NCBI RefSeq assembly: GCF_003430825.1
Contig: NZ_CP024047.1
Coordinates: forward strand, 1,364,001 to 1,428,000
Direction: 5' to 3'
Origin: Natrarchaeobaculum sulfurireducens
GTDB lineage: Archaea; Halobacteriota; Halobacteria; Halobacteriales; Natrialbaceae
Length of the DNA stretch: 64,000 bases
Positions 26,592-28,866 of this stretch are shown piece after piece. Below the pieces are notes generated by a model, which did not search any database, had not been told where the DNA came from, and saw only the letters and a list, made by a program, of their open reading frames with translations. The position numbers were made by a program, and so were the translations under genes. Every line of letters begins with the position of its first letter. Positions within the stretch are counted from its first letter, which is position 1.

Positions 26592-26821
26592 GTTTTAAGC
26601 AAACCAATCGGATGATTCGCGGTGAAACCGTGGTCCGGGTTCAAGACCGAATCGCTGCTGAGTGGCGACTGGGCAACGCATCACGGCACAGGTCACCGGG
26701 GGCAGAAAACTGACGAGTCGACCCGCTACCACGGGTTCACTCGTTGCGATGGGGCCGACCCTATTAGGAATCTGCTACATTCTCGGACCCGTGCGTGATG
26801 CAGCGCCTAAAGAGCGAACGC
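26592..26821 (+). promoter_or_regulatory. promoter and conserved long leader, copy 1
   Basis: A TATA-like AGTTTTAAG (26591-26599) is followed by about 215 bases shared with the leaders at 27585 and 28654. Conserved blocks include ATCGGATGATTCGC, GTGAAACCGTGGTCCGGGTT, GGGCAACGC and, just before the gene, TGCAGCGCC. The middle 60 bases differ between copies. A leader this long is unusual in a haloarchaeon. Confidence 0.6.
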
Positions 26822-27331
26822 ATGAAACGAACACTCACGATCACGATGGCGGTAGCGTTGATCGGCAGCCTCATGTTCATGGGGTTCGCCGGCACAGCAG
26901 CGGCACAGAACAACAACAACGTCGATAATGGCATCAGCGTCGATGTCGACGCCGACTTCGCCGAGCAAGAGCAGACAGCAGAGACGAACATCGACATCCA
27001 ACAGGAAACCCAGAACGAGCAAGTAGGTGAAGCGACTGCAGAGACGAACGTCCTCGCCGCCGATTTCGGTGGAGCTGGCACCATGGCTGCACCCACAGCC
27101 GCACCAGCTGATAAGAAGGGGGCTGCACCCGCTGTTGCACCCGCAGCCGCTGACGGCGGTGCTACTGCACTCGGCGTCTCCGAAGCAAGCGTTGATCAAA
27201 CGCAGGACCTCGACCAGAGCAACACTGTCGAGATCAGTGACGTGACGACCGAGACCGGCGATAACATCCAGGACGCCAGCGTTGACGTCACCGTCGATAA
27301 CAACAATAACAACAACAATAATAACGACTAG
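26822..27331 (+). CDS. small secreted repeat protein, paralogue 1
   Basis: 169 residues from ATG 26822. The signal peptide MKRTLTITMAVALIGSLMFM continues to GTAAAQ, with likely cleavage after AAA. The mature chain begins NNNNVD, then has ETNIDIQQETQNEQVGEATA (the same Q-x-x-NEQ-x-G-x-A form as the large protein), an Ala/Pro/Lys-rich linker, a second motif SVDQTQDLDQSNTVEISDV, GDNIQDASVDV and a poly-Asn end. In-frame start codons nine residues earlier (MQRLKSER) are possible, but the signal peptide favours this ATG. Head of a three-gene tandem family, each gene with its own promoter. Confidence 0.8.
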   Translation: MKRTLTITMAVALIGSLMFMGFAGTAAAQNNNNVDNGISVDVDADFAEQEQTAETNIDIQQETQNEQVGEATAETNVLAADFGGAGTMAAPTAAPADKKGAAPAVAPAAADGGATALGVSEASVDQTQDLDQSNTVEISDVTTETGDNIQDASVDVTVDNNNNNNNNND

Positions 27332-27540
27332 CGCTTCCGGGAGTTTCTTATTATTCGATACATATTTCGCAGCGATCAGTCGCTAGGGTCGACGTTACAA
27401 CTCGAGTGAGCGTAGCCATACAGTTCTTTTCGAGCGTATAGATCGGTTCGTTAGCGCCAGTGGCGCCGGTAGTCTCGATTGCGACGGACCCGCCAGAGCC
27501 CTCGAGACCGATCCGTCGAATTCCTCGAGTGTTGGATCCG
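27332..27540. other. spacer between paralogues 1 and 2
   Basis: About 210 bases with no gene or clear structure, lying before the conserved promoter of paralogue 2. The oligo-T run here is short (TTTCTTATTATT near 27345) and could end transcription of paralogue 1. Confidence 0.4.
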
Positions 27541-27580
27541 TTGTATGCTCGCCGAAACTGCCACAGTTAGCGTTTTAAAC
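27541..27580 (+). promoter_or_regulatory. promoter of paralogue 2 with palindromic operator
   Basis: AACTGCCACAGTT at 27556-27568 is a perfect 5-bp inverted repeat around CCA. Four bases later comes the TATA box TTTTAAAC (27573-27580). The same 40 bases with two changes occur at 28608-28648 before paralogue 3, palindrome and spacing kept, which supports a shared regulator. Confidence 0.65.
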
Positions 27581-27584
27581 AGTC

Positions 27585-27803
27585 AAATCGGATGATTCGC
27601 TGTGAAACCGTGGTCCGGGTTCAAGGTCGAATCCATGTTGAGCAACGACCGGGCAACGCGTCACAGTACGAGTCACTGGGGTGCAGAGAACTGGTGGGGA
27701 CGGCCTTCAGAAGGGGGATTGCTCTCCCGACGGGGCCGCTCTGCTATCGCTCTGCGCGTATTACCCACGTCTGTGTGTGATGCAGCGCCTGGAGAACGAA
27801 CGA
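27585..27803 (+). promoter_or_regulatory. conserved long leader, copy 2
   Basis: Shares with copies 1 and 3 the blocks AATCGGATGATTCGC, GTGAAACCGTGGTCCGGGTT, CAAGGTCGAA, GGGCAACGCGTCAC, CACTGGGG and GCAGCGCCTGGAGAACGAAC. A GGAG nine bases before the ATG at 27804 is a Shine-Dalgarno match and favours the MKRT start. The middle is unlike the other copies. Confidence 0.6.
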
Positions 27804-28394
27804 ATGAAACGAACACTCACGATCACGATGGCGGTAGCGTTGATCGGCAGCCTCATGTTCATGGGGTTCGCCGGCACAGCAGCAGCACAGAATAACAACA
27901 ACGTCGACGAAGTCGAGGAATTCGCTGACATCACCATCGACGCCGACTTCGCTGAACAAGATCAGACGGCAGAGACGAACATCGACATCCAGCAGGAAAC
28001 CTCGAACGAACAGATTGGCATAGCAGAGGCACAGACTGACGTCGCCGCGCTCAACGCGGGCGGTGCTGCTGGAGCACCCGCAGCCGCACCTGCTGAGAAG
28101 AAGAAAGGTGGCGCTGCTGCACAGCCAGCCCAAGCGCCCGCTGACGGTGGCGCCAGTGCCGTTGGTGCCTCCGACGCGACCGTGAACCAGGTGCAAGACC
28201 ACGACCAGAGCAACACGGCTACCGTCGAGAACGTGACGACCCAGACCGGCGACAACGTTCAGGACGCTAGCGTCGACCTCAACCTCGAGGACATCGACCT
28301 GATCGACAACGACAACGACAACGACAACGACAACGACAACGACAACGACAACGACAACGACAACGACAACGACAACGGCAACGAAGACGTATAA
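27804..28394 (+). CDS. small secreted repeat protein, paralogue 2
   Basis: 196 residues from ATG 27804, preceded by GGAG at 27791-27794. The signal peptide is identical to paralogue 1 (MKRTLTITMAVALIGSLMFM...). After NNNNVDEVEEF come ETNIDIQQETSNEQIGIAEA, an Ala/Pro linker with KKKGG, ATVNQVQDHDQSNTATVENV and TGDNVQDASVDLNLED. It ends in a run of twelve Asp-Asn pairs, then GNEDV. Such acidic Asp/Asn runs can bind calcium. The Gln/Asn motif is shared with the large repeat protein, so joint assembly (subunit plus nucleator or cap) is plausible. Confidence 0.82.
   Translation: MKRTLTITMAVALIGSLMFMGFAGTAAAQNNNNVDEVEEFADITIDADFAEQDQTAETNIDIQQETSNEQIGIAEAQTDVAALNAGGAAGAPAAAPAEKKKGGAAAQPAQAPADGGASAVGASDATVNQVQDHDQSNTATVENVTTQTGDNVQDASVDLNLEDIDLIDNDNDNDNDNDNDNDNDNDNDNDNGNEDV
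28305..28376 (+). repeat. hexanucleotide array (GACAAC)12
   Basis: Twelve perfect copies of GACAAC, 72 bp, encoding the Asp-Asn tail of paralogue 2. Pure arrays of this type change length by replication slippage; hexamers keep the frame. Confidence 0.95.
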
Positions 28395-28434
28395 CCCGAA
28401 ACGTAGCGTCTCTGGATACGTTCCAACTTCAGTA

Positions 28435-28440
28435 TTTTTT
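28435..28440 (+). terminator. oligo-T terminator after paralogue 2
   Basis: Six T residues 40 bases after the stop codon, the usual archaeal termination signal. No hairpin is needed. Confidence 0.5.
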
Positions 28441-28607
28441 CGTGACGGTGAGTCCCACCTTCGCTGTGAGAGGCGGGTGCAAAACTTGACGTCAATCCGT
28501 TGGGCCCTGACAACGAGCCGACGATGTCATGATACCAGCCACGCCGACCTCGTATCACTCAGTTCGGGCTCGAAGATGACACTCCCGTCGGTCGATAGAT
28601 GAGCCAG

Positions 28608-28648
28608 TTGTATGCTCACCAAAACTGCCACAGTTGGCGTTTTAAACA
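28608..28648 (+). promoter_or_regulatory. promoter of paralogue 3 with palindromic operator
   Basis: AACTGCCACAGTT at 28623-28635 and the TATA box TTTTAAAC at 28640-28647 match those of paralogue 2 with the same four-base spacing. Confidence 0.65.
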
Positions 28649-28653
28649 ATCCA

Positions 28654-28866
28654 ATCGGATGATTCGCGGTGAAACCGTGGTCCGGGTTCAAGGTCGAACC
28701 TATACTGGGTAGCGACTGGGCAACGCGTCACGGCACAGGTCACTGGGGGCAGAGAACTGACGGGTCGGCCTCGACGATGGGTCGCCCCGTTTCGACGGGG
28801 GAGTCGGCCCGTTGTCTGCCATATTCTCCATACCAGTGCGTGGTGCAGCGCCTGGAGAACGAACGA
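28654..28866 (+). promoter_or_regulatory. conserved long leader, copy 3
   Basis: Nearly the same blocks as copies 1 and 2 (ATCGGATGATTCGCGGTGAA, CCGTGGTCCGGGTTCAAGG, GGGCAACGCGTCACGGCACA, GGGGGCAGA). The middle holds a GC-rich part (CCCCGTTTCGACGGGG) that can fold. GGAG lies nine bases before the ATG. Confidence 0.6.

Follow-up and report, generated by a model that had tools for sequence, protein, structure and literature searches.

Three genes for small secreted Q/N-rich proteins in a 64,000-nt stretch of DNA from the haloarchaeon Natrarchaeobaculum sulfurireducens (contig NZ_CP024047.1, positions 1,364,001 to 1,428,000; hereafter the window) are each preceded by a copy of an element that, judged by its sequence, appears to be specific to the family to which this organism belongs. 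Our reading, to which we give a probability of about 0.7, is that the element is composite, each gene having an activated promoter followed by a 5′ UTR that closes into a long hairpin and acts in cis on the life or the translation of the mRNA. The computation directly supports the existence of the element, its fixed spacing, its association with one kind of gene, the pairing within it and the strand specificity of that pairing. A preliminary description of this DNA had left the choice between a structured 5′ UTR, a protein-binding RNA and a distant control site; the element would rather combine a DNA control site and, immediately after it, a structured 5′ UTR. Similarly, the ‘leader’ of about 215 nt recorded there is indeed a conserved block but consists of two parts, an upstream half that resembles promoter DNA and a downstream half that alone is predicted to be transcribed.

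Three copies in the window

All three copies and their genes lie on the forward strand, and their upstream sites and boxes were delimited by position counts over 119 loci (see below). Copy 1 begins with an upstream site (CAAT...ATT...TGAAACCGTG) and a TATA-like box, TTCAAGA, at 26605-26646 (box at 26640-26646), continues as a predicted transcribed leader with a long hairpin at 26666-26821 (closing arms 26670-26689 and 26791-26809) and leads into a gene for a secreted Q/N-rich protein of 169 amino acids, which runs from the start codon at 26822 to 27331. In copy 2 the upstream site and box (TTCAAGG, 27620-27626) occupy 27585-27626, the predicted hairpin leader 27646-27803 (arms 27649-27669 and 27773-27792) and the gene, for a secreted Q/N-rich protein of 196 amino acids, 27804-28394. 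The corresponding parts of copy 3 are at 28652-28693 (box TTCAAGG, 28687-28693), 28713-28866 (arms 28716-28736 and 28836-28855) and 28867-29349 (secreted Q/N-rich protein of 160 amino acids). The downstream half of each copy (26666-26821, 27646-27803 and 28713-28866) is, from its sequence features, very probably transcribed.

Coordinates, alignment and a DNA search of the organism's own genome bear out the three leaders at the places first reported. With copy 1 as query the search returned exactly three copies, the other two with E values of 7e-50 and 2.6e-27, far from chance, and a sequence-only model of the block found the same three with no credible fourth (next match E 1.67). Two of the shared blocks originally listed, ATCGGATGATTCGC and GTGAAACCGTGGTCCGGGTT, do not differ among the copies in the alignment, whereas the third, GGGCAACGCGTCAC, is matched exactly by copies 2 and 3 and with a single change by copy 1, which reads GGGCAACGCATCAC. 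The differing middle part is also present; it lies inside the predicted hairpin of each copy and folds too. Similarity between the copies extends into the signal-peptide codons (93-94% over 139 nt), indicating that recent duplication, one of two proposed reasons for the likeness of the leaders, contributes within this genome, although it accounts for only part of the similarity.

Distribution and associated genes

A plain DNA search of 100 relatives matched the core in nine, seven of them genuine (73-84% identity) and two due to an unrelated 25-nt match; the best protein matches in the seven relatives with the conserved block are 36-56% identical. A sequence-only model for the family search, made from 26 examples (some reached through protein matches), located the element in 85 of the 125 family genomes searched, covering 24 of 29 genera and including Natronococcus pandeyae and Halobiforma nitratireducens. 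Outside the family, 392 genomes drawn from the order gave six weak matches (E 0.003-0.007), a number near that expected by chance, and we therefore treat the element as absent there; the large genome draws were searched with stricter filters, at which weak matches are lost. Selection, the other reason originally proposed, is supported by retention of the block in 24 of 29 genera ahead of coding parts that have diverged. The opposite outcome, blocks not conserved where the coding parts of relatives have diverged, would have spoken against it and did not occur.

Ninety-two fetched stretches contained 124 matches to the model, and 119 of these directly precede a gene for a small secreted protein, nearly always rich in Q and N. 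Left out of the 119 were L145, L171 and L172, which are among the weakest matches and have no such gene adjoining, a second match in L103, at a contig end, and L085, in which a gene reading as a transposase stands between the element and its gene. This last ORF (482-1474 of L085, genome G016) is a natural interruption of the leader. The gene starts 70-190 nt past the TATA-like box (a leader of 44-164 nt plus 26). At L149 and L155 the element precedes secreted proteins with repeats of the KHDDKHDK type in place of Q/N repeats.

The products usually carry the secretion signal MKRxLxxxLxVAxxGxLxFMGFAGTAAA, followed by an acidic, mostly Q/N-rich region. Among 113 distinct proteins a hydrophobic leader is present in all, an AxA motif in 109 and a QxN..Q motif in 100, and no Pfam or NCBIfam model, that of the curlin repeat domain included, matched the products above cut-off. 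AlphaFold draws paralogue 3 as a long two-strand beta-hairpin at a mean pLDDT of only 60.5, too weak to interpret. The divergently oriented neighbour of copy 1 (24487-26088, reverse strand) encodes a secreted protein of 533 amino acids whose QxNxNxQ repeats form roughly five paired blocks and for which AlphaFold gave nothing usable; the model search of this genome found no copy of the element belonging to this gene. Many relatives have sequence homologous to the large protein next to the element; some match was obtained at 76 of 94 loci, a figure that is inflated because the repeats also match the small proteins themselves. Runs of the 6-mer GACAAC at 28308-28376 and 29285-29334 encode (DN)n tails at the C-termini of paralogues 2 and 3; they differ in length and are possibly prone to slippage, and paralogue 1 ends in a run of Asn instead. 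The secreted Q/N-repeat proteins may be surface or matrix material.

A promoter-like upstream half

Base counts per position over the 119 loci, numbered from the first T of the TATA-like box, reveal YAAT near -35, ATT near -24 and YGAAACYGTT at -17 to -8, then CGGG. In the box itself T at position 0 and A at +3 are present at 119 of 119 loci, with T or A at +1 and A or T at +4. Its variants include TTCAAAT (22), TTGAAGT (19), TTCAAGT (18), TTCATAT (16), TATAAGT (14) and TTAATAC (9), together with TTTAAAT; of these, TATAAGT, TTAATAC, TTCATAT and TTTAAAT fit a TATA box. The spacing from the box to GACYGGGCAACGCG is near-constant, that from there to the gene variable.

Haloarchaeal promoters, as published, have TTWT, CGAAA as BRE and WW at -10 (PMC4983044), and this pattern together with the conserved positions leads us to read the upstream half as a promoter with a predicted start at GACYGGGC. 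On this sequence evidence, transcription probably starts there, some 27 nt downstream of the T that opens the box; in the window the predicted starts would, from the conserved box, probably fall near 26667, 27647 and 28714, and starts near 26620, 27600 and 28670, as previously suggested, are by the same yardstick probably about 45 nt too early. In the usual BRE place before the box, which is itself found at all 119 loci, there is no match to CGAAA. The YGAAA motif resembles the published haloarchaeal BRE (PMC4983044), and placing the BRE there would shift the predicted start several nt upstream. Many of the boxes are poor and the site upstream of them is conserved, which suggests an activator, on which the promoter probably depends.

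In the window a TTTTAA is found upstream of all three copies (26597-26602, 27577-27582 and 28640-28645), at leaderless distance from the GTG of GTGAAACCG; it is mostly absent in relatives and could possibly be a second promoter. At two loci, L151 and L162 (around 1201-1310), the promoter half is kept before leaders of only 44 and 51 nt that lack the conserved strand of the hairpin, and these short leaders constitute a natural test of what the hairpin contributes.

A leader predicted to close into a long hairpin

The predicted 5′ UTR measures about 154-158 nt in the window copies, with a median of 124 nt over the 119 loci. Single-sequence folds give a long hairpin, closed where the first ~22 nt of this UTR (GACUGGGCA-A-CGCGUCAC) pair to a stretch immediately upstream of the start codon, the partners being GGGCA-A-CGCGUCAC at the 5′ end of the mRNA and GUGRUGC..GCC a short way ahead of the start codon. 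Arm-to-arm pairs number 16, 17 and 17 in copies 1, 2 and 3, and one pair of the closing stem is G-C in copies 1 and 3 and A-U in copy 2. Unaided consensus folding of the three window copies returned the closing stem with three pairs changed on both sides; with 23 close leaders it returned this stem only, and here just one of 11 pairs changes on both sides.

The covariation check suggested in the preliminary description was run in the form of shuffles, arm permutation and a home-made tree-based null, and came out in favour of the pairing, with compensation on single branches only suggestive. Alignment sets of 113 rows were obtained from the 119 loci by dropping L151 and L162 (leaders below 60 nt) and four identical rows; among these rows are 109 distinct leaders of at least 75 nt, and the 113 leaders used in comparing strands are those of at least 75 nt before removal of duplicates. 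The duplex formed by a leader's own arms has an energy of -24.5, against -21.6 (sd 0.28) for permuted arms, with none of 10000 permutations as low. Taken by genus the values are -26.1 and -22.9 (sd 0.47; 0 of 20000), own arms being better in 18 of the 20 genera when compared by row and in all 20 by column. At least 10 pairs join the first 24 and the last 48 nt in 99 of the 109 distinct leaders (median 17, shuffle mean 5.9); in the other 10 the arms are not linked by 10 pairs, and just 27 of the 109 exceed all of their own 30 shuffles. With 113 leaders aligned by sequence alone, 10 of the 14 pairs show changes on both sides; the paired share of cells is 78.8%, against 75.8% after shuffling (0 of 500), and covariation is 0.201 against 0.168 (0 of 500).

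The tree-based null yields 65.9% paired cells (sd 3.6), with 0 of 300 runs reaching 78.8%; single branches carry 5 compensating changes where 2.1 are expected, a count that 24 of 300 runs reach, and both this and the cells changed on both sides (reached by 30 of 300) are suggestive only. When the 3′ arm is slid by two columns, 63-67% of cells still pair; being GC-rich and repetitive, the arms give fairly high scores to such shifted pairings as well. Relative to its own shuffles the coding strand has a z of -2.63 and the other strand -1.45, the coding strand being better in 93 of 113 leaders; in copy 1 the other strand folds equally well. G-U cells outnumber A-C cells in the leader pairing by 202 to 125. 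Taken together, the main measures point to a coding-strand RNA. The start of the leader folded alone has no excess stability in four stretches (z 0.10, -0.61, -1.59 and 0.05), in line with the 3′ arm having been cut off.

Rfam 15 gave only three unrelated weak matches for the window stretch at E values up to 10, and no match for six loci from relatives at the gathering score. A riboswitch with a conserved ligand-binding core was considered and rejected, the inner part varying in sequence and length and the closing stem alone being conserved over the family. In the window copies the promoter half (CGTGGTCC) could plausibly form a short hairpin with GGGCAACG; this too was set aside, its 5′ side varying freely opposite a fixed 3′ side. 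An SD-like motif occurs in the last 18 nt of 12 of 119 leaders, consistent with SD-independent initiation.

Alternative explanations

All of the conservation might reside in DNA, as a promoter furnished with an extended array of protein sites, including one at and beyond the start, the complementarity of the arms being incidental or serving a DNA-binding dimer. We regard this as rather unlikely: conservation of the 5′ arm beyond what pairing needs, and its fixed distance from the promoter, would be well explained, but not the matching of the arms leader by leader, the frequency of G-U pairs (202 against 125 A-C cells), the better folding of the coding strand in 93 of 113 leaders or the wide variation in the distance between the arms. 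Unlikely too is a start upstream of the whole block, near 26620, 27600 and 28670, with the complete 200 nt as leader RNA. The TTTTAA of the window copies, some 26-27 nt before that start, fits such a scheme, as does a T-rich spot at the same place in many relatives (T at -45 in 76 of 119), but most relatives lack TTTTAA there, no partner that pairs and changes in step was seen for the GAAAC...TTCAAG half and the box variants resemble TATA boxes. In this genome both starts may be used.

It is highly improbable that the block encodes a small leaderless peptide (V/L-K-P-W/F-S-G-F-K...DWATRH). Although copies 1-3 can be read from a GTG at leaderless distance from TTTTAA, the first codon over all 119 loci is more often TCG, CTG or CCG than GTG (16) or TTG (8), an in-frame stop falls within 22 codons at 36, and the downstream part of copy 2 has a one-base shift; with start codons mostly missing and these stops, we reject a coding peptide. 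We give just as little credence to recent duplication as the sole explanation, or to a mobile element with inverted-repeat ends. The 93-94% identity of the signal-peptide part between copies and the inverted repeats at the leader ends would suit either, but the element is kept across 24 of 29 genera, has no copies elsewhere in its own genome and is followed by the same gene family at 119 of 124 matches.

A proposed mechanism and its significance

For the preferred reading of promoter plus hairpin leader, we infer the start site, the activator and the role of the hairpin as follows. The upstream ~60 bp would be an archaeal promoter, with an upstream site YAAT-N-ATT-N-YGAAACYGTT and an often poor TATA-like box, and would probably depend on an activator. 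The transcript would begin at GACYGGGC and its 5′ UTR would fold into a hairpin that pairs the 5′ end of the mRNA with a segment near the start codon. The 5′ end sealed in this manner could protect the message of strongly made secreted repeat proteins, and the stem, close to the start codon, could tune initiation, possibly via a protein reading the conserved 5′ strand. Most likely the hairpin acts in cis on the stability or the translation of these mRNAs, the odds between the two being roughly equal. That the 5′ strand is so strongly conserved in sequence points to a factor that recognises it, whether as DNA, as RNA or as both. More tentatively, and on balance we doubt it, this could be a new archaeal RNA family, a long 5′-terminal hairpin with its conserved strand recognised by a dedicated RNA-binding protein, or itself a direct sensor of salt or temperature, that times the production of amyloid-like extracellular repeat proteins and is coupled to a private activated promoter throughout the family.

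The preliminary description held most haloarchaeal mRNAs to be leaderless, in agreement with the 72% of protein-coding transcripts reported for Haloferax volcanii, where 5′ UTRs longer than 150 nt are infrequent (PMC4983044). Where transcripts are mostly leaderless, it is unusual for 24 of 29 genera to keep a long leader whose arms match. Structured 5′ leaders are a known kind of element; since Rfam assigned the searched stretches of this one to no family and, in the titles and abstract starts of the open-access papers retrieved, neither the element nor its secreted proteins is described, we take it as a new example. Lying before one family of secreted proteins, it offers an archaeal case in which control at the RNA level can be put directly to the test and points to a conserved set of secreted Q/N-repeat proteins.

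Comparison with known systems

The leader of Escherichia coli ompA carries a stabilising hairpin at the 5′ terminus of the mRNA for an abundant envelope protein. The stem predicted here would likewise lie at the very 5′ end of its mRNA, but sequence and organism are unrelated and stabilisation in the present case is our conjecture. In the curli system, small secreted Q/N-repeat subunits are found beside a larger secreted repeat protein, and the small products described here similarly adjoin the gene for a larger secreted repeat protein; no curli-type assembly genes were recognised in the sequence inspected. Amyloid-like assembly of the products would be an analogy with curli and not a result. 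The conserved TGAAAC-like half-site agrees with what we take to be the consensus of the site bound by the gas vesicle activator GvpE. Compared with that presumed consensus, this half alone is conserved, two half-sites 4 nt apart were not found and a GvpE-type site was rejected.

The published GvpE site lies beside the BRE and is made up of two halves of 8 nt with 4 nt between them (PMC4390858). Gas vesicle promoters have an activator site adjoining a haloarchaeal core promoter for an abundant structural protein (PMC4390858), an arrangement that the present element, as read here, would share. The two differ in the second half-site, which is not seen in the counts over 119 loci, and in the hairpin, no conserved hairpin leader being reported in the accessible part of that source (PMC4390858). 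In the haloarchaeal hp transcript, strengthening a stem in the 5′ UTR abolished translation and weakening it led to constitutive high translation (Brenneis and Soppa 2009, PMC2636863), a result that makes translational control a real possibility here. Ours, too, would be a stem in a haloarchaeal 5′ UTR; control of translation was demonstrated for hp (PMC2636863) and is conjectured for our element. The hp stem is short (-7.4 kcal/mol) and belongs to one gene (PMC2636863), whereas the element described here is predicted to have a long hairpin sealed by the mRNA's own 5′ end and stands family-wide before one gene family.
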